This document shows positions 9,255-33,967 of a stretch of 35,194 nt of DNA, one piece after another. The stretch is from Desulfurococcales archaeon (lineage in GTDB: Archaea; Thermoproteota; Thermoprotei_A; Sulfolobales; NBVN01). A program made the translations under genes and the position numbers. The stretch lies in contig JALWZB010000141.1 of the NCBI GenBank assembly GCA_027002995.1, positions 1-35,194 of the forward strand, read 5' to 3'. Position 1 is the first letter of the stretch. Each line of letters begins with the position of its first letter. Below the pieces are notes generated by a model that saw only the letters and a list, made by a program, of their open reading frames with translations, made no database searches and was not told where the DNA came from.

Positions 9255-9650
9255 TTGAGTGAGTGCGGCGGCACTAATCTTAAGGAGGCTGAGGAGGCCC
9301 TCGACAGGGCTAAGCACACCTTAATGGAGGGCGATAAAGCAGGCGCCTTGAGAGAAGCTATTAGGGCGGCACGTAAGGCGTTAGCGGCCGTCGCCCCCAC
9401 CACCCTACCCCACACTCCTAAGGACTTACCCTTAACGGAGCTGTATAGGTTGGTAAGTGACTCACTAGGTGGGGTGTGGGTTGATGAGGCGTGGAGACGG
9501 ATCCTCGACATGTGCGTTAAGCTGCTCGATAAAGCTGAGGCAGGCGGGCTCAAGGCACCTAACGAGATCAGCGAGGTTGAGGACGTGATAGCCTGTGCTG
9601 AGGAAATACTTAACTGGGTTGAAGCATTCACGCCACGGAGACTCGGTTAG
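9255..9650 (+). CDS. Small alpha-helical protein, HEPN/TPR-like, function unknown
   Basis: ALDRAKHTLMEGDKAGALREAIRAARKALAAVAP helical pattern; no obvious HEPN RNase RxxxxH motif. Confidence 0.5.
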   Translation: MSECGGTNLKEAEEALDRAKHTLMEGDKAGALREAIRAARKALAAVAPTTLPHTPKDLPLTELYRLVSDSLGGVWVDEAWRRILDMCVKLLDKAEAGGLKAPNEISEVEDVIACAEEILNWVEAFTPRRLG

Positions 9651-9757
9651 TCCCCGCAAGCCCACTGAACCCAATAACGCTAGCCCCTAATTCCATAGTA
9701 GGTGGCGATGTACTTTTAGGGTGCGGAATCCTTCAGTAAATGGTGTGGGGGTGAAGG

Positions 9758-9955
9758 TTGTCTAGCTCTGAACTCCTGTCCGAAATTAAAGAGATAAAGG
9801 AAAGACTTGCTAGACTGGAGTTAATGTTGCGTTTTATTATAGAGAGAAACGTAGGGGAGGAGGAACCCCTACCGGACGAGGTTGAAGCTATAGAGTCCAA
9901 AGACGAACTAATAGACATTGATGAAATTAAAAGAAAATTAATGGAGAAGTCCTAA
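9758..9955 (+). CDS. RelB-like antitoxin of an archaeal RelBE-type pair
   Basis: Short coiled protein ending EEEPLPDEVEAIESKDELIDIDEIKRKLMEKS directly upstream of a RelE-like ORF. Confidence 0.75.
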   Translation: MSSSELLSEIKEIKERLARLELMLRFIIERNVGEEEPLPDEVEAIESKDELIDIDEIKRKLMEKS

Positions 9956-9968
9956 CGGGAGATTAAGT

Positions 9969-10244
9969 TTGAACAATAATATTTTTAATGTAAAGGTAAA
10001 ACGCCGCGCTTTTAAAGCATTAGAGCGGCTTCCCAGAGATTACGTGTTTAGAGTATTAGAAGCACTTGACGAATTATCGACTAACCCTATCCCATTCAAG
10101 AGATATGATTTAAAGAAGCTCAAAGGATACAAGGACACCTTTAGAATCCGCATAGGGGGTATACGCATCATCTACACTATAGATTGGGACTCCAAAAGCA
10201 TCATAGTGCATTACATAGGTTCTCGAGAACGTGCATACAAGTAG
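9969..10244 (+). CDS. RelE/ParE-superfamily toxin
   Basis: KVKRRAFKALERLPRDYVFRVLEALDELSTNPIPFKRYDLKKLKGYKDTFRIRIGGIRIIYTID is the canonical RelE core. Confidence 0.9.
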   Translation: MNNNIFNVKVKRRAFKALERLPRDYVFRVLEALDELSTNPIPFKRYDLKKLKGYKDTFRIRIGGIRIIYTIDWDSKSIIVHYIGSRERAYK

Positions 10245-10932: not shown

Positions 10933-11529
10933 GTGGATAGAGCGTCGATTAGGAGGTTGTATGAGGAGTACCTTCCCTTAATAGAGGAGTCTATTAGGTC
11001 GTGGCGCATGATTTACTATAGGGAGAAAGGTTCACGGAGAAGCAGTAGGGAGGGTGCCGGTAGTAGGTTAGGGAAGGAGTACATCTACGGGACCGTTAGG
11101 CCTTTCTTCGAGAGGTTGAGCCCGGACGATAGTCGCTACATAAGGACGCATAGGATGATAGTTTTCGGGATGATGGAGCACAGCCCCTCACTCAAGGCAG
11201 TGGTGCTTAAGGCCTCGGGAAGGAAGCTGGCGAAGCTACTGCTTAGGGAGGGCATAGTTAGGTCGCTTGACGACTTACCCATGGTCTTCATGGTTCAGAG
11301 GATAGGGTTGCTGGACATCGTTGATGAGTCCCTGAACACCATGAAGGTCAATATCTACGAGTGCATGAGTTGCTTCGGGATGAAGCCGGTCTCCACCCCA
11401 ATGTGTGATTTCGAGGCAGGGATCATTGAGGGCATACTGGAGGGGCTCTACGGCAGGAACGCTACTGTCGAGAAGAACTGTTGGGGGCTAGGCAACCACT
11501 TCTGCGGCTTCGAAGTTTACTTCAAGTAG
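10933..11529 (+). CDS. corQ: V4R (4-vinyl reductase) domain protein, CorQ-like CO-responsive regulator component
   Basis: C-terminal MSCFGMKPVSTPMCDFEAGIIEGILEGLYGRNATVEKNCWGLGNHFCGFEV is V4R-like. Next to an HTH protein and a CODH cluster, as reported for corQR of Thermococcus onnurineus. Confidence 0.82.
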   Translation: MDRASIRRLYEEYLPLIEESIRSWRMIYYREKGSRRSSREGAGSRLGKEYIYGTVRPFFERLSPDDSRYIRTHRMIVFGMMEHSPSLKAVVLKASGRKLAKLLLREGIVRSLDDLPMVFMVQRIGLLDIVDESLNTMKVNIYECMSCFGMKPVSTPMCDFEAGIIEGILEGLYGRNATVEKNCWGLGNHFCGFEVYFK

Positions 11530-11543
11530 TAGGGTAGTAAGGG

Positions 11544-12683
11544 ATGACTTCAACACTGATCGTCAGGCCGGTGGCGCACTGCGACCTCAACCACCCGACA
11601 TGCCCTTTCTCGCATGGGGTGAACAAGGGCTTCGAAATACTTCACCCGGCTGTACTCAGCAGGGTACTGCGTGAGCTTAAGGGCTACGTGTTTGATGAAG
11701 CGGTGATCTCGTGCCCAAACCCCCTACTCCACCCGAGGGTTACGGAGCTGGCATCGCTAATGAAGTCAGTGGCTAAAAGGCTCTCGCTCTTCACCCCCGT
11801 CACCGGGTTAGGCAAGGTGAGTAAGGAGTTACTTGAAATGGTTGACGAGCTAGTAGTGATTAGCTCATCCATAAGCGAGCTTAAGGAGGAGGAAGAAAGG
11901 ATTAAGGGGTTACTGAGCCAAGGATTCGAGAACGTGGCGATCTACTCAACCGTCACTAGGGGGGAGTCAACGCTACTCGCAGCATCGGAGCATGCGGAAT
12001 TCTGCAGGAAGTACGGCATACCGTTAAGGCTTGGGGAGCTACCATACGTAAATAAGGTTCCGTTCAAGCTGAGGGACGCGCTAGTTAAGGAGGGGTGTGA
12101 AGTCTCAATACCTTACGGACTTAAGTACGGGTACGAGGCATCAGTCACGTTCATGAAGGACTACAGGGTGACCGTGCTTGAGAGACCCTCAGGCAGGGCA
12201 TGCAGGATGTTATTCATAGACTATTACGGGAGGGTGGGTAAGTGCCCCTTTACCCGCCCGCTCCTCGAGGCTAAGGACGCCAGTAGCGACTTGCTGAGGA
12301 AGGTGATCTACTCCGAATGCCCGACCAAGGATATGGGACCTGACTACGTCCCGGAGGTCAGGATATCCCTGAGGGCTGGTAGGGACGTCATCATACCTCC
12401 AGACATCCTAGCCTTGCTTGAGGTCATAGAGTCCACAAACTCATTAAGGGCGGCGTGCAGGCTCCTAGGATATAACCCCTCTACCTACGTCGAGAAGCTA
12501 AGGTCGCTGGAGAAGAGGCTGGGTGTTAAGCTAATAACTTCAAAGCGCGGAGGCTCACTCAAGGGCGTGACCCTACTCACTGAGGAGGGGATGAGGATCC
12601 TAGCAACGTACAGGAGGGTTAGGGAGGCAATCATGGCGTCACTCATTAAGGAGAACGTCTACAGGTTCTCCTTCGAGTACTAA
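11544..12683 (+). CDS. corR: CorR-like regulator: N-terminal radical-SAM/MoaA-like domain fused to C-terminal ModE/LysR-type HTH
   Basis: HTH: LLEVIESTNSLRAACRLLGYNPSTYVEKLRSLEKRLGVKLITSKRGGSLKGVTLLTEEGMRIL. N-terminal CDLNHPTCPFSHG and later CRMLFIDYYGRVGKCPFTRPLLEA recall radical-SAM/MoaA segments. Confidence 0.75.
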   Translation: MTSTLIVRPVAHCDLNHPTCPFSHGVNKGFEILHPAVLSRVLRELKGYVFDEAVISCPNPLLHPRVTELASLMKSVAKRLSLFTPVTGLGKVSKELLEMVDELVVISSSISELKEEEERIKGLLSQGFENVAIYSTVTRGESTLLAASEHAEFCRKYGIPLRLGELPYVNKVPFKLRDALVKEGCEVSIPYGLKYGYEASVTFMKDYRVTVLERPSGRACRMLFIDYYGRVGKCPFTRPLLEAKDASSDLLRKVIYSECPTKDMGPDYVPEVRISLRAGRDVIIPPDILALLEVIESTNSLRAACRLLGYNPSTYVEKLRSLEKRLGVKLITSKRGGSLKGVTLLTEEGMRILATYRRVREAIMASLIKENVYRFSFEY

Positions 12684-12689
12684 ACTCCA

Positions 12690-12714
12690 GAACACGTAAT
12701 GCAAATCCGTGTTC
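12690..12714 (+). promoter_or_regulatory. Inverted repeat GAACACG-N11-CGTGTTC upstream of the cooF promoter
   Basis: Perfect 7-bp arms at 12690-12696 and 12708-12714, about 25 bp upstream of an AT-rich TATA candidate. Confidence 0.75.
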
Positions 12715-12739
12715 AGTATTCCGATCACGAACTCCTTAA

Positions 12740-12747
12740 TTTTAAAT
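12740..12747 (+). promoter_or_regulatory. Candidate TATA box for the coo operon
   Basis: TTTTAAAT in ACTCCTTAATTTTAAATTC, about 35 bp before the cooF TTG start. Confidence 0.55.
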
Positions 12748-12778: not shown

Positions 12779-13426
12779 TTGGCGTTAGCTTCGATAGCTA
12801 GGCTAGGTCCCTCCGCAGAGGAGTATGTGATATTCATTGATCCGGAGAGGTGTATGGGCTGTAAGGCGTGTGAGGTTGCCTGCGCTGTTGAGCACTCGAT
12901 CAGTAAGAATATCTTCGGTGCTGTTCGTGAGAGGCCTAAGCCAAGACCGAGGATCAGGGTAGTTACGGTGGATGATCTATTCTACGTCCCCATGAGGTGC
13001 CAGCACTGCAAGGACGCACCATGCATTAACGTGTGTCCCACGAAAGCCCTTAAGAGAACTGAGGAGGGGTACGTTATCTTAAATGAGAATCAATGCATTG
13101 GGTGCTTAATGTGTGTTCTAGCATGCCCCTTCGGCCACCCAAGGTATAATGCCGACACGAAAACCATAGTTAAGTGCGACTTCTGCATCGACAGGGTGCG
13201 TGAGGGTAAGCTACCAGCATGCGTTGAGGCCTGCCCTACCGGGGCGTTAAGGTTCGGGAGGCTGGAGGAGTTACTGAGGGACGTTACGGAGAAGAAGGCC
13301 AGGGAATTAGTTAGCGGTGCGTCAGTACCCGGAATAGTTATTGTGAAACCCGTCGAGAAGGCGGTGAGGGGTGCCCCCAAGGTATTAGGGGTTAGGTCCA
13401 TGTACTCCCCCGTTTCATGGAGGTGA
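12779..13426 (+). CDS. cooF: CooF-type four-cluster ferredoxin electron carrier
   Basis: CMGCKACEVACAVEH, CQHCKDAPCINVCPTKAL, CIGCLMCVLACPFGHP, CDFCIDRVREGKLPACVEACPTGAL; directly before cooS. Confidence 0.93.
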   Translation: MALASIARLGPSAEEYVIFIDPERCMGCKACEVACAVEHSISKNIFGAVRERPKPRPRIRVVTVDDLFYVPMRCQHCKDAPCINVCPTKALKRTEEGYVILNENQCIGCLMCVLACPFGHPRYNADTKTIVKCDFCIDRVREGKLPACVEACPTGALRFGRLEELLRDVTEKKARELVSGASVPGIVIVKPVEKAVRGAPKVLGVRSMYSPVSWR

Positions 13427-13433
13427 TCACCTC

Positions 13434-15344
13434 ATGGTTAAGAGGAAAGAATACCTCAGGCTCAGGCTCCCGACGAATGAAGTCTCAATAACTCCCGGGG
13501 TCTCCAGGCTACTGGAGAAGGCGGAGGAGGAAGGCATCGAGACAGCATGGCACAGGTACCTCCTGCAACAACCGCAGTGTGGCTTCGGAATGCTGGGGAT
13601 ATGCTGCAGGAACTGCAACATGGGTCCCTGCAGAATAGACCCCTTCGGCTACGGACCTGATAGGGGCATATGCGGTGCTAATGCGGACACCATAGTTGCT
13701 AGGAACATACTCAGGATGATAGCGGCGGGCGCCGCCGCCCACAGCGACCACTGCAGGGACATTGTCAAGGTATTCAGGATGGTTGCCGAGGGCAAGACAA
13801 AGTACTACAAGATAACGGACTCAGAGAAGCTCAGGTGGCTCGCTAAGGCGTACGGCATTGAGGTCGAGGGTAAGGACGACTTAGAGATTGCGAAGGAGCT
13901 CGTACCCATCCTGGAGGCTGAGTTCGGCAAGCAGGATGAGGAACCATTAAGAACCCTAACAGCGCTAGCACCTAAGAAGAGGATTAAAGTATGGGGCAAG
14001 GCAGGGGTACTGCCCAGAGCCATTGATAGGGAGATATGTGAGTGCATGCACAGAACACACATGGGTGTGGACGCGGACTACGTCAGCCTCCTACTGCACG
14101 GCGTCAGAACCTCCCTGGCGGACGGGTGGAGCGGTTCAATGCTCGCCACCATCCTGAGCGACATACTGTTCGGCACGCCCAAACCAATTAAGTCCGTCAT
14201 GAACTTAGGTGTGCTTAAGGAGGACATGGTCAACATAATAGTCCATGGACACAACCCAGTGCTCTCAATGAAGGTTGTCGAGGCAGCAATGAGTGAGGAA
14301 ATGCAGGAGCTGGCGAAGGAGTACGGGGCTAAGGGAGTTAACGTTGCGGGGATGTGCTGCACCGGTAACGAGGTGCTGATGAGGTTAGGCGTCCCGATAG
14401 CGGGTAACATGCTCATGCAGGAACTGGCAATCATCACTGGCGCCGTGGAGGCGATAGTGGTTGACTACCAGTGCGTGATGCCAGCCTTAGTGGATGTGGC
14501 AGGATGCTACCACACCAAGGTAATAACTACTGAGCCGAAGATGCACATACCTGGAGCCCTACACATCGAGTTCGAGCCCGAACACGCCGAGGAGGTAGCT
14601 AAGAAGATAGTTAGGGTGGCGATCGAGAACTACCCCAACAGGTCTAGGGAGAGGATGTACATACCTAAGCACAAGATGGAGATCGTGGCAGGCTTCAGCG
14701 TCGAGGCAATACTCGAGGCACTCGGAGGAACCCTCGAACCGCTAGTGAATGCCTTAAAGGACGGAACCATCAAGGGCATAGCCGGAGTAGTTGGGTGTGT
14801 GAACCCCAAGGTAAAGCACAACTACAGCCACGTAACCCTAACTAAGGAACTGATAAAGAACGACATCCTAGTCGTGGGTACAGGGTGCTGGGCAATCGCC
14901 GCTGGCATGCACGGCCTCCTAAGCCCCGAAGCCGCTAAGATGGCTGGGCCGGGCTTAAGGAAGATCTGTGAAGCGCTAAACATACCGCCATGCCTCCACA
15001 TGGGCAGCTGTGTGGACTGCTCGAGGATGCTCCTAGCCATAGCAGCGCTCGCGGAGGCCGTTGGCGTGGACATGTCCGAACTACCCGTCGTTGGGTCGGC
15101 GCCTGAGTGGATGAGTGAGAAGGCGGTAAGCATAGGCACGTACTTCGTAGCATCAGGAGTCTTCACGCACCTAGGCACCGTCCCGCCAGTGCTCGGCAGT
15201 GAGAGGGTGACTAGGCTACTCACCGAGGACGTGGAGGACGTGGTTGGAGGTAAGTTCTACGTCGAGCCAGACCCCATCAAGGCGGCCAGGGTAATGATTG
15301 AGGTGATTGAGGAGAAACGCAGAAAGTTAGGATGGCCGACGTGA
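13434..15344 (+). CDS. cooS: Anaerobic Ni-CO dehydrogenase catalytic subunit
   Basis: CGFGMLGICCRNCNMGPCRIDPFGYGPDRGICGANADTIVARN; HGHNPVLSMKV; GMCCTGNEVLMRLG; VGCVNPKVKHNY; GTGCWAIAAG; HMGSCVDCSRM. Confidence 0.98.
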   Translation: MVKRKEYLRLRLPTNEVSITPGVSRLLEKAEEEGIETAWHRYLLQQPQCGFGMLGICCRNCNMGPCRIDPFGYGPDRGICGANADTIVARNILRMIAAGAAAHSDHCRDIVKVFRMVAEGKTKYYKITDSEKLRWLAKAYGIEVEGKDDLEIAKELVPILEAEFGKQDEEPLRTLTALAPKKRIKVWGKAGVLPRAIDREICECMHRTHMGVDADYVSLLLHGVRTSLADGWSGSMLATILSDILFGTPKPIKSVMNLGVLKEDMVNIIVHGHNPVLSMKVVEAAMSEEMQELAKEYGAKGVNVAGMCCTGNEVLMRLGVPIAGNMLMQELAIITGAVEAIVVDYQCVMPALVDVAGCYHTKVITTEPKMHIPGALHIEFEPEHAEEVAKKIVRVAIENYPNRSRERMYIPKHKMEIVAGFSVEAILEALGGTLEPLVNALKDGTIKGIAGVVGCVNPKVKHNYSHVTLTKELIKNDILVVGTGCWAIAAGMHGLLSPEAAKMAGPGLRKICEALNIPPCLHMGSCVDCSRMLLAIAALAEAVGVDMSELPVVGSAPEWMSEKAVSIGTYFVASGVFTHLGTVPPVLGSERVTRLLTEDVEDVVGGKFYVEPDPIKAARVMIEVIEEKRRKLGWPT

Positions 15345-15388: not shown

Positions 15389-16189
15389 ACGAAGATCCTA
15401 ATATCGGGAAAGGGCGGTACAGGAAAAACAACGGTGGCCGCCTTACTAGCCATGGCATTCGCCAGCAACGGGTACAATGTGATAGCGCTCGACGCGGACT
15501 CCGTGCCTAACTTGGCCCTAAGCCTAGGCGTGCCGAGGGAGCGTGCAGAAGCAATTGTGCCTCTCTCGAAAAATGAGAAATTAGCGGAGGAGAGGACAGG
15601 GGCCAGGCCTGGTGAAGGATGGGGCATACTATTTTCCCTAACGCCAAAGGTCGATGACATAGCCGATAAGTACGGTATTAAAATACTTGATAATCTGAAG
15701 CTAGTGGTTGTGGGTAGCATAGACGCTAGTAAGGAGGGATGCATGTGCCCGGCAATAGCGCTAGCAAGAGCTTTCCTGCTACACGTGATGATACGGAGGA
15801 ACGACGTAGTTATAGTTGACTCCGAGGCCGGAGCTGAGGTGTTCGGCAGGGGCCTTGCGGAGAAGTTTGAATTCAACGTAACGGTTGCTGAACCAACAGT
15901 TAAGTCCCTGTCGATAGCCTCTAAACTAATAAGGATGGCCAACGAGTTAGGTGTTGCTAAGAACGTCTTGGCAGTAAATAAGGTAAGGGACCACATAAAG
16001 GCACTCCGGCTGGTAGCTAAGGTGCTTCACCCTGAAGCACCGCCGACCCACCTTATCAGGTGGGACGATAACGTGGTCAAGGCTGAGGAGGAGGGGTTAG
16101 GACTAAACACCCTCCCCCGAAACTCACCCGCAAAAGAAGATGTTTTTCACCTAATGTCTAAGCTAATCTCCTTCTCAAAAAGACCTTAA
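15389..16189 (+). CDS. cooC: CooC-type nickel-insertion ATPase; start codon not canonical
   Basis: KILISGKGGTGKTTVAALLAMAF (deviant Walker A), VIVDSEAGAEVFGRGL. The ORF-track start at 15434 cuts off the Walker A. In-frame TGA at 15374; no ATG/GTG/TTG between it and the P-loop; ACG at 15389 gives (M)KILISGKGG. Confidence 0.85.
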   Translation, partial: TKILISGKGGTGKTTVAALLAMAFASNGYNVIALDADSVPNLALSLGVPRERAEAIVPLSKNEKLAEERTGARPGEGWGILFSLTPKVDDIADKYGIKILDNLKLVVVGSIDASKEGCMCPAIALARAFLLHVMIRRNDVVIVDSEAGAEVFGRGLAEKFEFNVTVAEPTVKSLSIASKLIRMANELGVAKNVLAVNKVRDHIKALRLVAKVLHPEAPPTHLIRWDDNVVKAEEEGLGLNTLPRNSPAKEDVFHLMSKLISFSKRP

Positions 16190-16424: not shown

Positions 16425-18419
16425 ATGGTTAACCTCCCCCTCACCCAACCCGAAGTGCTTTTTCTACTACCTGTGATCTCCTGCCTCCTCTGCTCCGCCG
16501 CATCCCTCATCCTAAGGAAGGGTGTTGTGGCGCGTGCTCTTACCTCGCTACTGACATCACTTTCCTCCGTCCTCATGCTGGTCGTGGCCCTGATGTGCGC
16601 CCTCTTCGGGGTGAGGATACGCTTAAGCATTGCGACAGGTCTTTGGGGATCCTCAAACACCGTGCCCTGGCCGCTCAATACTATTGTGTTCGGGATCGAT
16701 GGCCTCTCCGCTACTTTCGTCCTAATGCTCGGCATCGTGGGTCTAGCATCATCCATATACTCACTAAGCTATCTGAGGAGGTTTGAGGGTGAGTATGACC
16801 TGCGTTTCTTCGGTGTTAACTACTCGCTATTCATCCTGCTGATGTACCTCGTTGTGACTGTTCGCGACCTCTTCTGGTTCTTCATTTTCTGGGAGCTCAT
16901 GACGCTGACATCTCAATTCCTAGTGTCCTTCGAGTACCGTAGGAGAGTGGCGGTAGCTGCTGGCCTGAAGTACTTCACCCTGACTAAGGTGCTGGCTGAA
17001 CTCATGATTGCTGGAGGCGTAGCCGTGATTGTTCTTGGAGGTTTACCGCATGGGACGGGGTTCCGGGAGGTCGCTACGTCACTTAACGCGATGCTCTCCA
17101 GTGAGCCTGTGATAGCGATGATTGCTATCGGTCTATTCTTTGCTGGCCTCATGGTTAAGGCCTCGCTGACCCCCCTACACGTTTGGTTACCCGACGCCCA
17201 CCCTGAAGCCCCCAGCAACGTGTCGGCACTGCTCAGCGGTATAATGATTAAGGTCAGCGTCTACATGATGTTCAGGCTATTCCTCTTCTTCAGCCCGCCG
17301 AACCTGCTGTGGGGAGCGATACTATCGTTTGCTGGGGCCGCGACCCTAACCTACGGAACCATGATGGCGTTAAAGCAGGTGGACAGTAAGAGGTTGCTCG
17401 CGTACCACAGCGTCGGTCAGATAGGGTACGTCGTCCTCGGCTTGGGTGCGTGCGTGACCCTACTCTCCATGAGTCCCCCGAACCCGGCGCTCGCGGCGGT
17501 TGCCGCGCTAGCTTCCCTCTACCACGCCCTCAACCACGCTGTATTCAAGTCGCTCCTCTTCCTGAACGCTGGCTCGGTGGAGTACGTGACTGGGACTAGG
17601 GACCTCAACGTTTTAGGGGGGTTGGGTAAGGTGATGCCTGCCACGGCGTTAACGGCGTTGATAGCGTCGTTCTCGATCGCTGGTATCCCTCCGTTCAACG
17701 GTTTCGTGAGTAAGTGGTTAATTTACTCATCAACAATGACTGTCCGCGGGTACCTGCCGGTTCTGGGTTTCCTCGCTCTCTTCATTTCCTCAGTAACTAC
17801 CGCTAGCTTCATAAAGTTCTACACCTCGATCTTCGGCAAGCCCTCACGTAAGTCCTTCAGTAACGCGCGTGAGGTTCCCGCCTCCATGCTGGTTGCTCAG
17901 CTACTGCTTGCCTCCCTCTGCGTCCTCCTAGGTGTCCTCCCTGGCCTAGCATTCACCCTCCTTAAGCCCGCCTTAGTTAGTGCTGGCTTGAGCATCGCTG
18001 GCTTAGGTGTTAGCTTAACGGCCTTCTCAATACCTTCCGTAGCCATTAACTACCCGACCCTGATAGCCGCGACCCTCTTCCCGGTTGCTGGCGTTATTTA
18101 CGCTGTCCTGAGTGGTAGGGAGGTGCACGGTATTGAGGGGTGGGCGTGCGGTGCCTTGAGGAGCCCGCACTCCCTCTCCCCTCCAGCCAAGTCTTACTAT
18201 GAAGTGTTTGAGGAGGAGTTCCGCGGGTTCTACAGGGTTGGGGAGGCGCTGTATGATTACGTGGTTATTAGGGGCTCCCAAGCACTGCGCGCTATCCTTA
18301 GGGGGGCTCAGCACTTGACTGAAAGTCCCTCACCCATGTCGGCGCTGACCGCGCTCGTGCTGATGGTGGCGCTCCTACTCTGCCTAACGCTTAAGTTGAT
18401 GGGGGTGATGCTCCCGTGA
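16425..18419 (+). CDS. Energy-converting hydrogenase proton-pumping membrane subunit (HyfB/NuoL/MrpD-like)
   Basis: FWFFIFWELMTLTSQFLVSFEYRR, PLHVWLPDAHPEAPSNVSALLSGIMIKVSVYMMFR. Confidence 0.93.
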   Translation: MVNLPLTQPEVLFLLPVISCLLCSAASLILRKGVVARALTSLLTSLSSVLMLVVALMCALFGVRIRLSIATGLWGSSNTVPWPLNTIVFGIDGLSATFVLMLGIVGLASSIYSLSYLRRFEGEYDLRFFGVNYSLFILLMYLVVTVRDLFWFFIFWELMTLTSQFLVSFEYRRRVAVAAGLKYFTLTKVLAELMIAGGVAVIVLGGLPHGTGFREVATSLNAMLSSEPVIAMIAIGLFFAGLMVKASLTPLHVWLPDAHPEAPSNVSALLSGIMIKVSVYMMFRLFLFFSPPNLLWGAILSFAGAATLTYGTMMALKQVDSKRLLAYHSVGQIGYVVLGLGACVTLLSMSPPNPALAAVAALASLYHALNHAVFKSLLFLNAGSVEYVTGTRDLNVLGGLGKVMPATALTALIASFSIAGIPPFNGFVSKWLIYSSTMTVRGYLPVLGFLALFISSVTTASFIKFYTSIFGKPSRKSFSNAREVPASMLVAQLLLASLCVLLGVLPGLAFTLLKPALVSAGLSIAGLGVSLTAFSIPSVAINYPTLIAATLFPVAGVIYAVLSGREVHGIEGWACGALRSPHSLSPPAKSYYEVFEEEFRGFYRVGEALYDYVVIRGSQALRAILRGAQHLTESPSPMSALTALVLMVALLLCLTLKLMGVMLP

Positions 18420-19357
18420 GTGCCGCATCGCCCTTACTGGCGTGCGCCTTCATACTGGTTAACGTTGCTTCACTAGCTGTTCTCGCACTGATTCTTGACG
18501 GTGTGGATAGGAAGGTTAGGGCTAGGGTGCAGCGTAGGGTTGGCCCGCCAATACTTCAGACTCTCTACGACGTGCTTAAGCTGTATAGGAGGCCCGTAAC
18601 GCGTGATGAGCTAGCAGGTCCCTTCCACTCGGTAGCCCCTGCCCTAGCGTTCGCTACGTCCCTAGTCGGTGCGGCCGTGATCCCCTCACTACTCCCTACC
18701 AGTGGCTTCCAGGGCGACCTAATAGTTGCCGTCTACCTAATCTCCTCAGTATCCGCCATAACCTCGTTCGGCGCCGCGTCATCCGGGATACCCTTCAGCG
18801 TGGTTGGTGGGTGGAGGGAGGCGTCATTAATGATGACTTCCGAGCTAGTCCTCGGAGCTACGGTGGCGGCCATAGCAAGCTCCAGCGGGTCGCTAATGCT
18901 TTCCTCCCTAATGCCGTTAATCCGGCCGAGCACCGTTAAGGTCTCACCGATAATTGCGTTGGCTAGCCTAGCATTACTAACATACGTTGAGGGAGGCAGG
19001 CTACCCTTCGAGATAGCTGAGGCGGAGCCCGAGCTGGCTGGCGGGGTTGCGTCAGGCTACGGTGGCCCGTCACTAGCCCTCCTCATGCACTCGCTACTGC
19101 TTAAACGCGTGTTGCTGGCGACGCTCTTCCTAGACCTGCTTGTCCCGTGGGGCGCGATCAGCAACGCGTTAGGCGCGCCTCTCGGGCTCGCCGTGAGGGC
19201 GCTGGCCTTCACCCTAGCCCTGACCCTGGTTTCCTTGGTGAGCGCCGTCATTGAGGCGCTGTACGGGAGGTGCAGGCCAGGTCACGCGATATCGATTGTG
19301 AAGAAAGCGTTAATTGTTTCGGGGGTGGCGTTGATTGCGGCGTGCGTCGGGTTCTGA
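18416..19357 (+). CDS. Hydrogenase membrane anchor, NuoH/HyfC/HycD-like
   Basis: DRKVRARVQRRVGPPILQTLYDVLKLYRR; EGGRLPFEIAEAEPELAGGVASGYGGP. Confidence 0.93.
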   Translation: MSAASPLLACAFILVNVASLAVLALILDGVDRKVRARVQRRVGPPILQTLYDVLKLYRRPVTRDELAGPFHSVAPALAFATSLVGAAVIPSLLPTSGFQGDLIVAVYLISSVSAITSFGAASSGIPFSVVGGWREASLMMTSELVLGATVAAIASSSGSLMLSSLMPLIRPSTVKVSPIIALASLALLTYVEGGRLPFEIAEAEPELAGGVASGYGGPSLALLMHSLLLKRVLLATLFLDLLVPWGAISNALGAPLGLAVRALAFTLALTLVSLVSAVIEALYGRCRPGHAISIVKKALIVSGVALIAACVGF

Positions 19358-19358
19358 G

Positions 19359-21056
19359 GTGCTGGGCAGGGTTGTTGAGACGCTTAAGCGCTTGGGCGCC
19401 GAGAGCGTGACGGTTACGCAGGAGGGGGTAGTGCTCTCTACCGTGACTAAGGATAGGTTAAGGGACTTCGTGAGGGCTTTGATTAGGGAGTACGGTGAGT
19501 CCTTAAGGCACTCAACATGCATGGGGACCGACTTAAGGCCTGTTAGGGGGTCCTTCAGCGTTACCCACGTGCTGGCGCTGGATGGTTTACGCCTGTACCT
19601 ACTGGTGGAGACCGAGGCCTTCGGCAACAGACCTAAGGTACCTTCACTAACCCCGCTCCTGCCAGCCGCTAACTGGGCTGAGAGGGAGGCGAGGGACTTA
19701 CTCGGCATTGAGTTCGAGGGCCATCCTGAACCTGTTAAGTTAATACTGCCGGACCCGTGGCCTGAGGGCGTGTTCCCCCTCAGGAAGGACTACCCCTACA
19801 ATAAGAAGCTTTACGAGACGCCGGCGCAGGTGCGTGGGGTGAGGGGCGAGCCCAGGTTCTTCTCCGCGAAGCCTTCCCCTCCGTCGGAAAGTGTTAGGGA
19901 GGGCTGCGCATTAATACCTGTGGGGCCTTACCACCCAGCGCTTCACGAGCCGGAGTACTATGAGCTCTACGTTGAGGGGGAGAGGATCGTTGAGGCTAGG
20001 TATAGAGGTTTCTTCGTGCATAGGGGGATGGAGAAGCTTGCAGAGTCTAGGATGACGATTAACCAAGTTCCCTTCCTGGCTGAGAGGATCTGCGGTATAT
20101 GCGGCTATACCCACGCGTGCGCGTACTGTCAGGCGGTGGAGGCAGCGGCCAGGATAGAGGTGCCTGAGAGGGCACTCTACATAAGGTCAATACTCCTCGA
20201 GATCGAGAGGCTCCATAGCCATATCCTGTGGTTTGGTGTCGCCTTCCATATGCTTGGGTTTGACACAGGCTTTATGGCGATGTGGAGGATTAGGGAGGAG
20301 GTTATGAGGGTTGCTGAGGCCCTCACAGGCAACAGGAAGACATACGGCATGAACCTAGTTGGTGGGGTGAGGAGGGACATAGACGAGGGTAAGGCGTCAC
20401 TCGTGCTGAGGATGCTTGAGTCCGTTGAGGGAGAGTTCAGGAGGTTCTGCGACTCCGTCCTCTCAATGCGTGAGGTCGTTGAGAGGGTTAAGGAGGTGGG
20501 TGTGCTCACCCGTGAGGACGCGCGGAGGCTCGGGGCCGTAGGTCCTCACGCCAGGGCGTCGGGGCTGGGGATAGATGTTAGGGTCGACCACCCCTACGCC
20601 GCCTACAGGTTCGTCGACGTTAACGTAGCTGTTAGGGACTCGTGCGATGTCCTAGCCAGGATACTGGTGAGGTATGATGAGGTCATCGAGTCCGTGCGCC
20701 TAATCAGGGAGCTCCTCAAGAACATGCCTAAGGGAGAGCTAATGGCTGAGTACGGTGACCTACCCCCGCTACGGGTAGGGCTCGGGGCAACGGAAGCGCC
20801 TAGGGGTGAGGACATTCACCTCGTGATCACTGGTAGGGGGAATAAGCTCTACAGGTGGAGACCCAGGGCACCCTCGTACGTCAACTTAGCGACAGTCCCC
20901 ACGATGCTTGAGGGGGAGAGACTGGCTAACGCACCCATAATAATAGCCAGCATAGACCCCTGCTTCTCCTGCACGGATCACGTGGTAGTGGTTGATTTGA
21001 GGACCGGGGTGAGGAGACGTATGAACCTACTTAGGAATGCATTAACGCGTGGGTGA
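19359..21056 (+). CDS. Group-4 [NiFe] hydrogenase large subunit, NuoC-NuoD fusion (HycE-like)
   Basis: NuoC-like AANWAEREARDLLGIEFEGHPEPVKLILPDPWPEGVFPLRKDY; Ni motifs RICGICGYTHACAYCQAVE and DPCFSCTDH. GTG 19359 follows the hyfC-like stop; ORF-track start is 19335. Confidence 0.95.
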   Translation: MLGRVVETLKRLGAESVTVTQEGVVLSTVTKDRLRDFVRALIREYGESLRHSTCMGTDLRPVRGSFSVTHVLALDGLRLYLLVETEAFGNRPKVPSLTPLLPAANWAEREARDLLGIEFEGHPEPVKLILPDPWPEGVFPLRKDYPYNKKLYETPAQVRGVRGEPRFFSAKPSPPSESVREGCALIPVGPYHPALHEPEYYELYVEGERIVEARYRGFFVHRGMEKLAESRMTINQVPFLAERICGICGYTHACAYCQAVEAAARIEVPERALYIRSILLEIERLHSHILWFGVAFHMLGFDTGFMAMWRIREEVMRVAEALTGNRKTYGMNLVGGVRRDIDEGKASLVLRMLESVEGEFRRFCDSVLSMREVVERVKEVGVLTREDARRLGAVGPHARASGLGIDVRVDHPYAAYRFVDVNVAVRDSCDVLARILVRYDEVIESVRLIRELLKNMPKGELMAEYGDLPPLRVGLGATEAPRGEDIHLVITGRGNKLYRWRPRAPSYVNLATVPTMLEGERLANAPIIIASIDPCFSCTDHVVVVDLRTGVRRRMNLLRNALTRG

Positions 21057-21062
21057 TGGTCG

Positions 21063-21560
21063 ATGGGCAGGCTACAGGTAATGGTCGAGGGTCTGGGCAA
21101 GCGAGTCGTCACTGAAGCGTACCCTTGGGCACCGCTGGAGGTTCCCGAGGGCTTCAGGGGTAAGCCAGTAATAGATCCTGAAAAGTGCGTTGGTTGCGGT
21201 TCATGCGTTAACGCCTGCCCGCCGAACGCGTTAACCTTGAGTGATGATGGGCGTCACCGCGTGGTTAAGCTGTTCCTCGGGCGATGCATTTTCTGCGGTA
21301 GGTGTGAGGAGGTGTGCCCATTCAACGCCATTGAGTTAACTAAGGAATTCGAGCTAGCAACCTCAAGCACCGAGGACTTAGTTCAGGAGGTTAGGCTGGT
21401 TATGGCTAAGTGCACTGTCTGCGGCAGGCCCTACGCCACGTTAAGGGAGGTTAGGAAGGTCGCTGAGTCGCTACCGGAGAACCTGAGAGGCTTAGCCTAT
21501 GTCTGCCCTGACTGCAGGGGGAGGATCTCATCATACTTCGTGGGGTTCGCTAGGAGGTGA
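21063..21560 (+). CDS. 2[4Fe-4S] hydrogenase ferredoxin subunit (HycF-like, C-terminal CxxC pairs)
   Basis: CVGCGSCVNACPPNALTL, CIFCGRCEEVCPFNAIEL, then CTVCGRPYA ... CPDCRG. Confidence 0.92.
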   Translation: MGRLQVMVEGLGKRVVTEAYPWAPLEVPEGFRGKPVIDPEKCVGCGSCVNACPPNALTLSDDGRHRVVKLFLGRCIFCGRCEEVCPFNAIELTKEFELATSSTEDLVQEVRLVMAKCTVCGRPYATLREVRKVAESLPENLRGLAYVCPDCRGRISSYFVGFARR

Positions 21561-22114
21561 GCTGCGTGGGGACGTGGTTCAGGAGAAGCACGTGGGTCTT
21601 CCACCTGAACTCCGGGTCGTGTAACGGGTGCGACATAGAGGTTCTTAACATGTTCGCCCCCACGCAGGACGTTGAGCGCCTCGGCGTTAAGCTAGTGGGG
21701 TCCCCCCTACACGCCGACGTCATAGTTTTCACAGGACCCGTCACGTTCCAAGCCCTCCCCTACGTTATTGAGGCGTTGAAGGCTGTCCCCAACCCTAAGG
21801 CAGTGGTTGCGTGCGGGTCATGCGCGTGCGGTGGGGGTATATGGCATGACTCATACAACGTTGTGGGAGGGATTAACGCCCTCTACGAGATCCTTGATGC
21901 CTTAGGAATCCCGAGACCGCCTACGGTCTACGTGCCTGGGTGCCCGCCGAAGCCGGAGGCGATGATGTATGGGGTGTTACTGGCTAGGGGCATGGTGGGG
22001 CAGAGGCAGAGGAGGGAGGTCTACGTGGAGGAGGTAAAGGAGGTTGAGGCTCCCCAAGATGTTAGGGAAGTGGTTGCTAAGGCGGTGAAGGCCTTCAGGG
22101 GTGGTGAGGCATGA
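21557..22114 (+). CDS. Group-4 [NiFe] hydrogenase small subunit (HycG/NuoB-like)
   Basis: NSGSCNGCDIEVLNMFAPTQDVERLGVKLVGSPLHADVIVFTGPVT, ACGSCACGGGIWHDSYNVVGG, YVPGCPPKPEAMMYGV. Confidence 0.95.
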   Translation: MSCVGTWFRRSTWVFHLNSGSCNGCDIEVLNMFAPTQDVERLGVKLVGSPLHADVIVFTGPVTFQALPYVIEALKAVPNPKAVVACGSCACGGGIWHDSYNVVGGINALYEILDALGIPRPPTVYVPGCPPKPEAMMYGVLLARGMVGQRQRREVYVEEVKEVEAPQDVREVVAKAVKAFRGGEA

Positions 22115-22398
22115 ACACTGCCCACATCCTCTCCTGGTTCGTGCCCGCCGTGACCTCAATCTTCCTGGCGGCCTTCACCCTATACATCGTGAGGGTCGTT
22201 AGGGGGCCGACGCTCCCGGACATCGTGTTAGCGATTGACTGCCTGTCGTACGACCTGGCGGTGTTCGTCGCCCTAATGTCGCTTTACTACGGCACGCCCT
22301 TCCTCGTCATCGGCGCGTTACTCCTGTCCCTCTGGGCGTTCATATTCGACGTGTTCGTGTCCAAGTACCTTGTGAGGAAGGACTTAGGGGGTGGGTAG
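22111..22398 (+). CDS. mrpF: Na+/H+ antiporter subunit MrpF-like
   Basis: RVVRGPTLPDIVLAIDCLSYDLAVFVALMSLYYGTPFL; small 3-TM protein in a Mrp cluster. Confidence 0.88.
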   Translation: MNTAHILSWFVPAVTSIFLAAFTLYIVRVVRGPTLPDIVLAIDCLSYDLAVFVALMSLYYGTPFLVIGALLLSLWAFIFDVFVSKYLVRKDLGGG

Positions 22399-22400
22399 CG

Positions 22401-22790
22401 GTGGTTAACGCGGTGGTGGATCAGGTACTGCTCTACGTCGGGATGGCCTTAGTCACCGTTGGGGCTGTCTACGACTTAATAGCTGGGATAGGCATGGCTA
22501 GGTTCCCGAACTTCTTCGTGAGGCTCCACGCGGCAACCATAGGTGCGGTGGGTGGTGCGGCGCTTCCCCTAGTCGGTGTTGCCCTGATAGCGCTTGCGTC
22601 GGATCAGCTAGGACCCTACAGGTTCGGGGTGTGCGCGGTGTGCTTGCTGACGGCTGCCGCGATACTGATAACTGCCCCTACGGGTTCACACATACTCGCG
22701 TACGCCGCGTACAAGACCCACGCCTCACCTAGGAAGCCCTGCATCCACGACGCCTTAAGGAAGTTCCTTGAGGAGGGTGAGGGAGGATGA
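22401..22790 (+). CDS. mrpG: Na+/H+ antiporter subunit MrpG-like
   Basis: GIGMARFPNFFVRLHAATIGAVGGAALPLVGVAL. Confidence 0.9.
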   Translation: MVNAVVDQVLLYVGMALVTVGAVYDLIAGIGMARFPNFFVRLHAATIGAVGGAALPLVGVALIALASDQLGPYRFGVCAVCLLTAAAILITAPTGSHILAYAAYKTHASPRKPCIHDALRKFLEEGEGG

Positions 22791-23053
22791 ACCCGGCCTT
22801 CGCATTAGGCATAGTCCTGTACCTCTGCGTCACCGCATTAGTAGCGTCGATCCTCGCCATCCGCGCAAGGGACTTAGTGAAGGCTGTGGCGTTCTCCGCC
22901 ATGCAGTCCGTCGCGTACGCCATAATCTACGCGTTGCTCCTCGCCCCAGACATACTGTTTGTTTACGTCGCCGTGGGTGTGGGTATATACCCGATCCTCA
23001 TGCTCTACGCCATATCGAAGACTAAGAGATTCGAGGAGGTGAGTGAGGGTTGA
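22787..23053 (+). CDS. MbhD-like / DUF4040 hydrogenase-antiporter subunit
   Basis: LYLCVTALVASILAIRARDLVKAVAFSAMQSVAYAIIYALLLAPDILFVYVAVGVGIYPILMLYAI. Confidence 0.85.
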   Translation: MNPAFALGIVLYLCVTALVASILAIRARDLVKAVAFSAMQSVAYAIIYALLLAPDILFVYVAVGVGIYPILMLYAISKTKRFEEVSEG

Positions 23054-23841
23054 GGAAGGCCTCCTACATCGCGCTGGCCGTGGTGGGGTGTGCGGCGTTA
23101 ACGCTCGTAGCGGTGCTCGGCACCTTCGCGAGCCCCAACACCTTAAGCAGGGTTAGGGCTCTAGGGGAGTTCATCCTTTACAACACCTTCAATGTCTTCA
23201 GCAAGCGCTGGTGGGCAGGAAGCCCGGAGGCGGTGACGGCAGTACTTTGGGACTACAGAGGGCTGGACACTATCTTCGAGACCACCGTGCTCTACGCCGC
23301 AGTAGCTGGGTGCGTCGTCCTAGGCTACACCAGCCTACTGAAGCGGGGCAGGGGACGTGACGAGGCAGGCGGGGGCCTAACCGTCGTCGTTAAGGCGGCC
23401 ACGAAGATACTTTTCGCCTTAATACTGATAACTTCAGTTAATGTCGCCCTTCACGGCTACATAACCCCCGGAGGAGGTTTCGCGGGAGGCTCAACCTTCG
23501 CCATAGCCCCGCTACTAGTCATAGCGGCGTACTCCACTGAGAAAGTTGTGCGGATGGGGTTCAGGTTCCTTAGCTCGGCGGTTATGAGGAGTGCTGGGTT
23601 GCTGGCCCTAGCGCTGGTGGTGCTCTCGCCGCTGATATACTACGGCTTCGTCCTCCAGAACCAGCTAAAGCCCAACTCCGGGTTCCCCGGGTACCCGGCC
23701 TTCCTAGGCCCGCTCTTCTTGGGCGGGTCCCTCCTCTACCTCAACTTCGCGGAGTTCCTTGTTGTTGGTATGGAGTTCGTCTTGGTCTTCCTAGCATTCC
23801 ACTTCATGGATAAGCTGATGGGGGGTGAGGGCAGTGGTTAG
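23050..23841 (+). CDS. mrpB: MrpB-domain protein (MbhE/F-like fusion)
   Basis: LDTIFETTVLYAAVAGCVVLG and VNVALHGYITPGGGFAGGSTFAIAPLLVIAAYS, hallmarks of MrpA C-terminus and MrpB. Confidence 0.9.
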   Translation: MRKASYIALAVVGCAALTLVAVLGTFASPNTLSRVRALGEFILYNTFNVFSKRWWAGSPEAVTAVLWDYRGLDTIFETTVLYAAVAGCVVLGYTSLLKRGRGRDEAGGGLTVVVKAATKILFALILITSVNVALHGYITPGGGFAGGSTFAIAPLLVIAAYSTEKVVRMGFRFLSSAVMRSAGLLALALVVLSPLIYYGFVLQNQLKPNSGFPGYPAFLGPLFLGGSLLYLNFAEFLVVGMEFVLVFLAFHFMDKLMGGEGSG

Positions 23842-24250
23842 TGTTGCCTACGTTATTTACGTCGCGTCATTCATAACCCTAGCTTGTACTGCGGCCGTGG
23901 GGGTTTACGGAGTCCTAGCTAAGAGGAACATCATCAAGAAGATCATAGCCCTCACAATAGTTGGGGATACCGCGAACACCTTCGCCATACTCCTAGGGTT
24001 CAGGGTTTCAGCGAACGTCATGCCGCCGGTGCTTCCTAGCCTGAACCCGAGTAAGGAGTTACTGACGCGCTTCGCTGGGGCCGCGGTGGACCCTGTGCCC
24101 CAAGCCCTCGTCATAACGGCGATAGTGATTAACCTAGCGATAACTGCGTTCCTCCTCTTCCTCGCTGTCCGTATTTACTCCCTCTACGGCACGCTGGACT
24201 ACGGTAAGGTAATCCGGGTTAGGAGGGGTGAGCTGGATGGTGAGGGCTAA
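23825..24250 (+). CDS. mrpC: MrpC (NuoK-like) antiporter subunit
   Basis: VYGVLAKRNIIKKIIALTIVGDTANTFAILLGFR ... DPVPQALVITAIVINLAITAFLLFLAVRIY. Confidence 0.92.
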   Translation: MRAVVSVAYVIYVASFITLACTAAVGVYGVLAKRNIIKKIIALTIVGDTANTFAILLGFRVSANVMPPVLPSLNPSKELLTRFAGAAVDPVPQALVITAIVINLAITAFLLFLAVRIYSLYGTLDYGKVIRVRRGELDGEG

Positions 24251-24740
24251 GGCGTACGTGGTTACCGCGCTCCTGCTCTTCGCAATATACCTAATGCTGG
24301 CGGGCTCGTTATCGAGTACGGACCTGATCTTCGGGGCTGCCGCCGCTGCATGCGTCTCCGCCATAGTGTGTGGCGTCCTAGTAAGGGATCCGGGGAAACT
24401 CAGCCCGACTAGGTTAGCGTACCTCATTAAGTACATGTTAAAGTACTTCCTCATCTACGAGGTCAGGGCACACGTAGATGTCGCGAGGAGGGCGTTAAGC
24501 CCGTCACTCCCCATAAACCCAGGATTCGTTGAGGTCCCCTACGACTTAAGGAGTGAGTACGCGGTGCTAACCGTGGCTAACTCAGTCACGAACACCCCAG
24601 GCACCGTAACCGTTGCTGTCGACGAGAAGGGCAAGAAGCTGTACATTCACTGGATAGACGTTAAGGCGGTCGACCCTAGGAGGTGTAGGGAGCTGATAAC
24701 GAGGGAGTTTGAGGAGTACGCTAGGAAAATTTTTGATTGA
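24228..24740 (+). CDS. mrpE: MrpE antiporter subunit
   Basis: YLIKYMLKYFLIYEVRAHVDVARRALSPSLPINPGFVEVPYDLRSEYAVLTVANSVTNTPGTVTVAVDEKGKKLYIHWIDV. Confidence 0.92.
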   Translation: MSWMVRAKAYVVTALLLFAIYLMLAGSLSSTDLIFGAAAAACVSAIVCGVLVRDPGKLSPTRLAYLIKYMLKYFLIYEVRAHVDVARRALSPSLPINPGFVEVPYDLRSEYAVLTVANSVTNTPGTVTVAVDEKGKKLYIHWIDVKAVDPRRCRELITREFEEYARKIFD

Positions 24741-24743
24741 GGG

Positions 24744-26336
24744 GTGATGATCATGGTTGACCCAGCAGCGCCCGAAGCGGTTCTGCCGGCGCTTGCCGTG
24801 CTTACCCCAGCCGTAACTGCTTTCGCGCTCCCGCTAGCCCACATTGCTGGGTTAGGGAGGAGGGGTGTTGAGGCCCTAGCCCTGCTTTCCTCAATCATAA
24901 CCGGGTTCTTCTCGGTTAAGCTCCTAGCGGCGGCGCTGAGCGACGGCACCCCCCTAACCTACTGCTTCGGTGGGTGGCCGCCGCCACTAGGGATATTCTA
25001 CGAGGTTGACGTTACTGGCGCCTTACTCGGGTGCTTGACGGCGTGCCTAATGTTCCTCATAGTGCTGTTCAGTGTTGGGTACATGGAGGATGACGGCAGG
25101 CTCTACCTGTACTACACGCTACTAATGGTTGTTGAGGCGGGGATGCTGGGCTGCTTCTACACTGGCGACTTCTTCAACCTATTCGTCATGATTGAGGTTA
25201 CCGCGATCTCGTCCTACGCCCTGGTCTCGTACCTCAGGAGCGATAGGGTGGCGGTGGCTGCCTCGCTGAAGTACGCTGTTTACGGGGCGTTAGCGACTAC
25301 GGCGTACTTCGCCGCTACAGTCTTCGCCTACGGCTCGATGGGGACCCTCAACATGGCCGACATGCACGCTAAGATAGCGGGCATCCCAACACCCTTAACG
25401 GGGACGGGCTTCGCTAACGTTGGCCTTGGGTTGCTGGTGTTCGTTGCCCTAGCCCTCTACGCCTTCACCTACAAGTCAGCGTTATTCCCGAACCACTTCT
25501 GGTTACCTGAGGCCCACTCATCAGCCCCGACACCGGTGTCGGCCCTCCTCTCAGGCCTCGTAGTGAATGTGGGGATCTACGCGATAGTGAGGTTCACCTA
25601 CACGGTCATAGGCGGCGCGTCAGCCGTCGGTAAGTACCTCCCCATAGCCCTCCTCGCTACGGGGGCGGCGTCAGCCGTTATTGGCGGTCTACTCATGAAC
25701 CTGCAGAGGGACGTTAAGAGGTTAATAGCTTACAGCACGGTAATGAATCTAGGCTTCATAGCCCTGGGCTACGGCCTATCCACGGACTTAGGGGTGGCTG
25801 CCGCCACCTACCACCTAGTCACGCACGCAGTGGCTAAGGCGATGCTCTTCATGAGCGCGGGGCTAGCGATAGCGTGCGTAGGGTCACGCAACCTCAGCGA
25901 CTTGGAGGGTGTGGGGCGTGCCTCCCCCTTCATAGGGTTCATGATTGGGGTATCAACCCTAACCCTAGCTGGGGTGCCCCCGCTAAGCGTGTTCATGAGT
26001 GAGTACGCCCTAATAACGGCCATGGTGAGGGCGGGGAATTACTTCGCCCTAGCAGCGTTCCTCACAGCCTACGTGTCTGGGGCGGTAGCGTACCTCAAGC
26101 TACTCTACGTGACGTGCGTGAAGCCCCCGAGGAAGCCTCGAACAGAGATCAGGGGCAGGGGGGCGACGTACAGCGTCCTCACAATACTCGCGGTGGCCTG
26201 CGTGGCCCTAGGCCTCCTAGCACCGCTGATCTTCAGGAGCGTGTTCATGCCTGCCGCACACACCCTAATGAACCCCTCACAGTACCTGAAAGCCTTCCTG
26301 CACTACGCGTCCACACTAACCAGCTACTCACCATGA
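24744..26336 (+). CDS. mrpD: MrpD (NuoN/NuoL-like) antiporter subunit
   Basis: GDFFNLFVMIEVTAISSYALVSY, KSALFPNHFWLPEAHSSAPTPVSALLSGLVVNVGIYAIVRF. Confidence 0.93.
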   Translation: MMIMVDPAAPEAVLPALAVLTPAVTAFALPLAHIAGLGRRGVEALALLSSIITGFFSVKLLAAALSDGTPLTYCFGGWPPPLGIFYEVDVTGALLGCLTACLMFLIVLFSVGYMEDDGRLYLYYTLLMVVEAGMLGCFYTGDFFNLFVMIEVTAISSYALVSYLRSDRVAVAASLKYAVYGALATTAYFAATVFAYGSMGTLNMADMHAKIAGIPTPLTGTGFANVGLGLLVFVALALYAFTYKSALFPNHFWLPEAHSSAPTPVSALLSGLVVNVGIYAIVRFTYTVIGGASAVGKYLPIALLATGAASAVIGGLLMNLQRDVKRLIAYSTVMNLGFIALGYGLSTDLGVAAATYHLVTHAVAKAMLFMSAGLAIACVGSRNLSDLEGVGRASPFIGFMIGVSTLTLAGVPPLSVFMSEYALITAMVRAGNYFALAAFLTAYVSGAVAYLKLLYVTCVKPPRKPRTEIRGRGATYSVLTILAVACVALGLLAPLIFRSVFMPAAHTLMNPSQYLKAFLHYASTLTSYSP

Positions 26337-33955: not shown

Positions 33956-33967
33956 GGTTAAATGCAA
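33941..33967. promoter_or_regulatory. 27-bp near-perfect palindrome TTGCATTTTAACCATGGTTAAATGCAA at the 5' end of the NAD kinase-HTH gene
   Basis: Arms TTGCATTTTAA / TTAAATGCAA around CCATGG, differing by one T. Confidence 0.8.

Follow-up and report, generated by a model that had tools for sequence, protein, structure and literature searches.

The CorR-like regulator encoded in the window (the whole stretch of archaeal DNA that was analysed, 35,194 nucleotides) carries a LysR/ModE-type winged HTH behind an N-terminal part, residues 1-270, for which independent lines of evidence (profile comparison and model-predicted fold) support a diverged radical-SAM/MoaA-like fold. This domain is maintained under strong purifying selection. 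The reading favoured here, preferred to its rivals with moderate confidence, is that CorR is a transcriptional regulator of the neighbouring CO dehydrogenase (CODH)/hydrogenase operon with CorQ as its partner, and that its sensor half is a repurposed radical-SAM domain which binds Fe-S and performs no SAM chemistry; the binding of metal, CO and DNA is inferred.

Gene, genomic setting and relatives of CorR

The window corresponds to contig C141 in a 1.86 Mb genome, the closest named relatives of which are Desulfurococcales MAGs. The corR-like ORF is a single open frame with an ATG start (Table 1), while the reverse strand of the same interval possesses stops throughout and is non-coding. The gene order is corQ, corR, cooF, cooS and cooC, followed by the Mrp-type hydrogenase to approximately position 26336. 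Together, cooF-cooS-cooC and the hydrogenase form an operon for CO oxidation, H2 evolution and ion pumping, such as is known in Thermococcus. The layout is that of the CorQR type, where the gene of a V4R-domain protein adjoins that of an HTH protein, which adjoins the CODH genes. The corQR genes of T. onnurineus have been reported to activate the CODH cluster (PMC4791640). The original paper reportedly names the V4R protein CorQ and the HTH protein CorR, and this naming is followed here; PMC6557876 has the opposite usage, with CorQ as the protein bearing the LysR-type domain and CorR as the one bearing V4R. Orthology of the window CorR to that of T. onnurineus rests on architecture and gene order, with no sequence comparison.

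Table 1. Features of CorR, its operon and the candidate control region (positions in the window)
Feature	Position	Strand	Basis
CorQ-like V4R-domain protein	10933..11529	+	Pfam V4R 6.4e-12; alignment of six
CorR-like regulator, 379 aa; radical-SAM/MoaA-like N-terminal domain, then LysR/ModE-type HTH	11544..12683	+	ORF, hhalign, Foldseek, Pfam HTH_1
Radical-SAM Cys loop C13-DLN-H17-PT-C20 (CxxxHxxC), residues 13-20	11580..11603	+	Aligned to CxxxCxxC of relatives and canonical radical-SAM proteins
C57-P-N-P at GGEP position, residues 57-60	11712..11723	+	hhalign alignment; C57 in 16/17 family members
Twitch/SPASM-like region with C220, C234 (CX13C, C-x8-G-x4-C) and C259	12201..12320	+	Trio in 15/17 family members; hhalign to SPASM 55%
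LysR/ModE-type winged HTH, residues 286-363	12399..12632	+	Pfam HTH_1, TIGR00637; E. coli ModE 1b9m by fold
Candidate operator in the corR-cooF gap, inverted repeat GAACACG-N11-CGTGTTC	12690..12714	.	Only own-genome match (<=1 mismatch); exact matches in G001, G524
CACGAAC (third half-site-like), then TATA-like TTTTAAAT; candidate cooF promoter	12726..12747	+	Common to four genomes of the genus; promoter role inferred
cooF, ferredoxin-like electron carrier	12779..13426	+	Pfam Fer4_11
cooS, anaerobic CO dehydrogenase catalytic subunit	13434..15344	+	TIGR01702, 769.6 bits vs cut-off 478
cooC-like nickel-insertion ATPase (P-loop)	15434..16189	+	Pfam CbiA; position conserved in relatives
Energy-converting hydrogenase with Mrp antiporter subunits	16425..26336	+	NCBIfam/Pfam

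A number of other genes of the window were also noted. A HerA-like ATPase and then a NurA-domain protein are encoded at 6224-9026, and genome G001 (L060) keeps both adjoining the HEPN, ParE-like and corQR genes. Just upstream of corQ (9255-10244), the window itself encodes a protein with a HEPN domain as well as an ORF that resembles a ParE-type toxin. An amino-acid permease (26423-28033, - strand) shows a weak match of its C-terminal residues 461-504 to an MntA-type nucleotidyltransferase model, and an ATP-NAD kinase-like protein (32921-33967, - strand) is unusual in its fusion to a C-terminal segment that matches a winged HTH.

Searches of archaeal genomes identified sixteen relatives covering the N-terminal domain; a contig scan gave Desulfurococcales relatives only, and no CorR relatives were found in the plasmid sequences searched. 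For fifteen of the sixteen, corR is located on the same contig as cooF-cooS (16 genomes with the window), lying directly upstream of these genes in 13, divergent from them in L121 and a few kb upstream in L120. The remaining relative (G158, L059:7689-9287 (-) / L097), a protein of 533 aa, has genes of formate dehydrogenase and of an Mrp-type hydrogenase as its neighbours, and the family may therefore serve other H2-evolving operons. This protein consists of a radical-SAM-like half, an HTH and an extra C-terminal domain, and is without the C-terminal cysteine trio described below.

Of the 17 genomes, 12 have a V4R gene adjoining corR. Genomes G005 (L054; 93% complete) and G063 (L056; 85% complete) possess corR-cooF-cooS-cooC, with a V4R match nowhere in the genome; as these are draft genomes, the absence is likely and unproven. 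V4R genes are present in G280 and G241, located away from corR. Alignment of six CorQs identified five invariant cysteines (C144, C147, C158, C183 and C191).

Fold, selection and cysteine sites

Three features were used to judge membership of the radical-SAM superfamily: a partial (beta/alpha)6 barrel, the cluster motif CxxxCxxC and the motif GGEP, which binds SAM by contacting its methionine. The first is met by CorR (predicted models, Foldseek and hhalign), and both motifs are unmet in the window protein, which has CxxxHxxC and CPNP in their place. Comparison of the CorR N-terminal profile with a radical-SAM profile using hhalign gave a probability of 98.6% (E 5.8e-16, columns 9-168), the CorR Cys loop being paired with CxxxCxxC and C57-P-N-P with GGEP; controls with the CorQ profile and with a reversed radical-SAM profile gave 0.1% and 1.6%, respectively. 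When the same N-terminal profile was run on whole genomes, matches outside the family were SPASM/MoaA-type radical-SAM proteins, and a canonical radical-SAM/SPASM relative (L095) is encoded in the same genome as the window. Taken alone, the window protein gave weak radical-SAM matches only (W_rSAM_matur, E 0.004); among relatives, the same model, that of a tungsten-cofactor radical-SAM maturase, was matched by six of eleven (best 8.8e-06) and MoaA by two. A Pfam scan of residues 1-269 alone showed no match, Pfam Radical_SAM not being significant for the window protein, and single-sequence domain searches therefore miss the radical-SAM half.

In the AlphaFold2 model of CorR (pLDDT 83, pTM 0.65, with low pLDDT at the Cys loop), strands and helices alternate as in the partial (beta/alpha)6 barrel of radical-SAM enzymes, and a C-terminal extension of the MoaA type is also predicted. 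Foldseek comparison of this model with the PDB placed MoaA first (E 8.4e-9, TM 0.50/0.57), and 48 of the 49 matches at E<=1e-3 were radical-SAM enzymes; sequence identity between CorR and MoaA is only 12-15%. When the L024 relative, which bears CxxxCxxC, was modelled as well, MoaA was again the best Foldseek match and the HTH led to ModE. The alignments underlying the two models contained 11 and 14 sequences only.

Pfam HTH_1 matches CorR with 29.1 bits, above the cut-off of 26.6 that was taken as the criterion for a LysR/ModE-type HTH. The best NCBIfam match is the ModE N-terminal-domain model TIGR00637 (6e-08, far under its cut-off), and a PDB search with the CorR sequence returned HTH proteins only. 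No Pfam match in CorR was obtained for the LysR effector (periplasmic-binding-protein-like) domain or the ModE molybdate-binding (MOP-like) domain, the other domain of CorR being radical-SAM-like and N-terminal.

For residues 1-275, dN/dS is ~0.10, a value that is approximate because dS is >1 in that pair; a closer pair, the window protein and L005, gave 0.09 for the whole protein. The possibility of a pseudogene or decaying relic was rejected on a dN/dS of ~0.1.

An earlier note on this DNA had described the protein as a degenerate radical-SAM/MoaA-like domain fused to a ModE-type HTH, and its account of the N-terminal half held, by profile and by predicted fold. Two outcomes that it had named as refuting were not obtained: structure prediction found a radical-SAM barrel with a MoaA-type extension, and the cysteines are conserved in homologues. 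The ORF and the three segments that it quoted are present, namely HCDLNHPTCPFSHG (carrying C13 and C20), SCPNPLLHPRVTEL (carrying C57) and CRMLFIDYYGRVGKCPF (carrying C220 and C234). Its Cys-x6-Cys also held, the alignment resolving this as CxxxHxxC, in which His17 takes the place of the middle Cys. The claim that the C-terminal half is the HTH held in part, as the HTH is real and occupies the C-terminal quarter. "Degenerate" applies family-wide only to GGEP, CxxxCxxC being intact in most members and His specific to the window genus, and the word "retired" is applicable to catalysis only, the domain being under purifying selection.

Cysteines were counted in a 17-row alignment of the window protein and its 16 relatives. 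The N-terminal triad reads CxxxCxxC in 10/17 rows and CxxxHxxC in 4/17, all of the window's genus; other variants are FxxxCxxC (Phe13) in L056, C-x2-C-x3-C in L120 and a deletion in L121. This genus forms one fully supported clade (100/100) whose four genomes all retain His17, and CxxxCxxC is the motif of canonical radical-SAM proteins; the change from Cys17 to His17 is therefore derived. The first Gly of GGEP is replaced by Cys (C57) in sixteen of the seventeen rows, the exception being L121, which has lost its entire Cys loop as well. As C57 is lost only together with the loop, it is a candidate additional cluster ligand, a role inferred from sequence alone and without C57-to-loop distances. 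The joint loss would fit shared work of C57 and the loop, a possibility that rests on one event with no statistical test. It has been described that a Gly-to-Ala change in GGEP abolishes the activity of BlsE, while the same paper notes that BioB tolerates changes there (PMC3715490). The L121 protein (L121:2-1018, - strand) is itself a natural CorR variant, with the Cys loop and C57 gone and the C-terminal trio kept, and its corQR genes are divergent from cooF.

L026 and L078 lack the entire C-terminal trio (C220, C234 and C259). With hhalign, this region matches SPASM modestly (reversed control 0.1%). The C220-x13-C234 spacing is that of the second half of the MoaA motif CX2CX13C (PMC5352715), and in MoaA three Cys residues hold the auxiliary [4Fe-4S] cluster, leaving an open iron where substrate binds (PMC9012708, PMC5352715). 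The resemblance of C220-x13-C234 and C259 to this three-Cys cluster is an inference from the residues, with no cluster data.

Candidate operator, proposed mechanism and rival readings

The gap between corR and cooF is 95 bp and contains an inverted repeat (Table 1), the sole match to GAACACG-N11-CGTGTTC in its own genome when up to one mismatch is allowed. Exact copies were identified in the corresponding position of G001 and also upstream of cooF in the distant genome G524, which belongs to a different family; about 0.1 exact matches would be expected over 21 genomes (author estimate, simple base counting). A second exact copy in G524 (contig C128, inside a gene) and weaker ones in or beside unrelated genes were treated as chance. 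The single half-site AACACG occurs in 5 of 11 cooF-upstream regions (lineages); in a control over all GC-rich 6-mers, shuffles reached >=5 in 11 of 500, and the half-site is suggestive only. Binding of CorR to the palindrome is inferred, as there are no DNA-binding data.

In the favoured reading, the sensor half of CorR would be a radical-SAM (MoaA/twitch-like) domain without SAM radical chemistry; the loss of this chemistry is inferred because GGEP has become C57-P-N-P and, in the window genus, because of His17. The protein would carry one or two Fe-S clusters. The N-terminal site would consist of C13, C17 or His17, C20 and possibly C57 where SAM would sit, and the C-terminal site of C220, C234 and C259, which may leave one iron open as in the MoaA auxiliary cluster. 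Acting with CorQ, the Cys-rich V4R protein, a cluster that changes in redox state or ligand would then shift the HTH on the palindrome upstream of cooF, turning the operon on when CO is present. Neither cluster would be universally required, as the N-terminal site is altered in several lineages and the C-terminal site is absent in L026 and L078. The suggestion of the earlier note that Fe-S or metal binding allows CO or redox sensing with CorQ is plausible, and remains an unproven inference. If true, this would be an unusual radical-SAM domain, its SAM motif lost, that was retained to serve a transcription factor as its sensor. The radical-SAM/MoaA-like half and its two Cys sets name the residues to mutate and the spectroscopy, the candidate operator gives a DNA-binding assay, and the natural variants (His17, loop deletion, trio loss and CorQ absence) are ready-made mutants.

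Against this reading, it is conceivable that CorQ, with five invariant cysteines of its own, is the only sensor where it is present. A related rival, which also remains possible, is that the radical-SAM-like half is a dimerisation or CorQ-docking scaffold only, with sensing by the V4R domain of CorQ and no functional cluster in CorR. In its favour are the invariance of the Cys residues in six CorQs, the loss of either CorR Cys site in individual lineages, and published accounts that put sensing in the 4-vinyl reductase domain (PMC6557876). However, cooF-linked CorR without V4R was found in G005 and G063, and no V4R gene adjoins corR in G280 and G241, which suggests that CorR can work where no CorQ is encoded beside it; in addition, conservation of C57 and the C-terminal trio is strong across distant orders.

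A bolder reading, less likely than the favoured one, may also be entertained, in which CorR would be the first known case of a heme-free Fe-S CO-sensing transcription factor derived from a radical-SAM enzyme. C57, with C13, C17 or His17 and C20, would close the SAM site, and the open iron of the MoaA-like three-Cys C-terminal cluster would bind CO directly and drive DNA binding; CorQ would only tune the response, since some genomes are without it.

It is unlikely that CorR is still a catalytic radical-SAM enzyme, cleaving SAM (for example to modify CorQ, itself or a small molecule) in a reaction coupled to transcription. The intact CxxxCxxC of ten family members, the fold and the similarity to MoaA speak for this, whereas GGEP is replaced by CPNP or similar across the family (the corresponding BlsE variant is inactive, though BioB is tolerant; PMC3715490), the window protein is without the middle Cys, and one relative with the loop deleted is still located beside CODH genes. 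Equally doubtful is a mononuclear metal site (Zn, Ni or Fe) at the Cys/His positions, by which CorR would report metal supply, such as nickel for CODH, and not CO or redox state. CxxxHxxC and C57 in the window genus could form a Cys3His site, and CooS needs Ni; against this, most relatives have the radical-SAM Fe-S Cys spacing, CX13C is MoaA-like, and the published CorQR phenotype is CO-related (PMC4791640). Generic TIM-barrel likeness with coincidental Cys motifs can be all but dismissed: the low identity to MoaA, the pTM of 0.65 and the non-significant Pfam Radical_SAM result would allow it, but nearly all Foldseek matches (48/49) belong to radical-SAM proteins even though other barrels abound in the PDB, and the independent, controlled profile evidence and the coinciding motif positions count against it.

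Comparison with known regulators and radical-SAM enzymes

CorQR of Thermococcus onnurineus NA1 (Kim et al. 2015, cited in PMC4791640 and PMC6557876) shares with the window the V4R and LysR-type-HTH genes beside an archaeal CODH/hydrogenase cluster; a radical-SAM-like half of its CorR is not mentioned in the accessible papers. The bacterial regulators CooA, RcoM and CoxC likewise control CODH genes in the response to CO, CooA and RcoM using heme and CoxC a MHYT domain (PMC11347149, PMC6557876), and no such domain is present in CorR. CO sensing by archaeal CorQR has been open because a heme domain is lacking, and the reading favoured here suggests a specific, testable route of heme-free CO sensing in heat-loving archaea. 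ModE and LysR-type regulators possess a winged HTH of the same family as that of CorR, but the CorR sensor half is radical-SAM-like, their molybdate-binding and substrate-binding domains not having been found in it.

Among radical-SAM proteins, the best fold match to CorR is MoaA (GTP 3',8-cyclase, PDB 1tv7/2fb2), a twitch-type enzyme. The two share the position of the N-terminal Cys loop and a C-terminal CX13C with three cysteines in all; the third of these lies 24 residues after CX13C in CorR, whereas MoaA has CX2C before it. CorR also differs from MoaA in CxxxHxxC (window genus), in CPNP for GGEP and in the added HTH, and there is no evidence for catalysis. The closest NCBIfam non-HTH model is that of the tungsten-cofactor oxidoreductase radical-SAM maturase (TIGR04317), which CorR, with the motifs lost, matches with 16 bits against a cut-off of 380. 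TsrM has a side chain that excludes SAM from the unique iron of its cluster (PMC8992657). CorR shares the radical-SAM fold with this protein and, as a proposal, the occupation of the unique iron by a side chain rather than by SAM; in TsrM this is a Glu in an enzyme, whereas for CorR it would be a Cys at the first GGEP position in a regulator.
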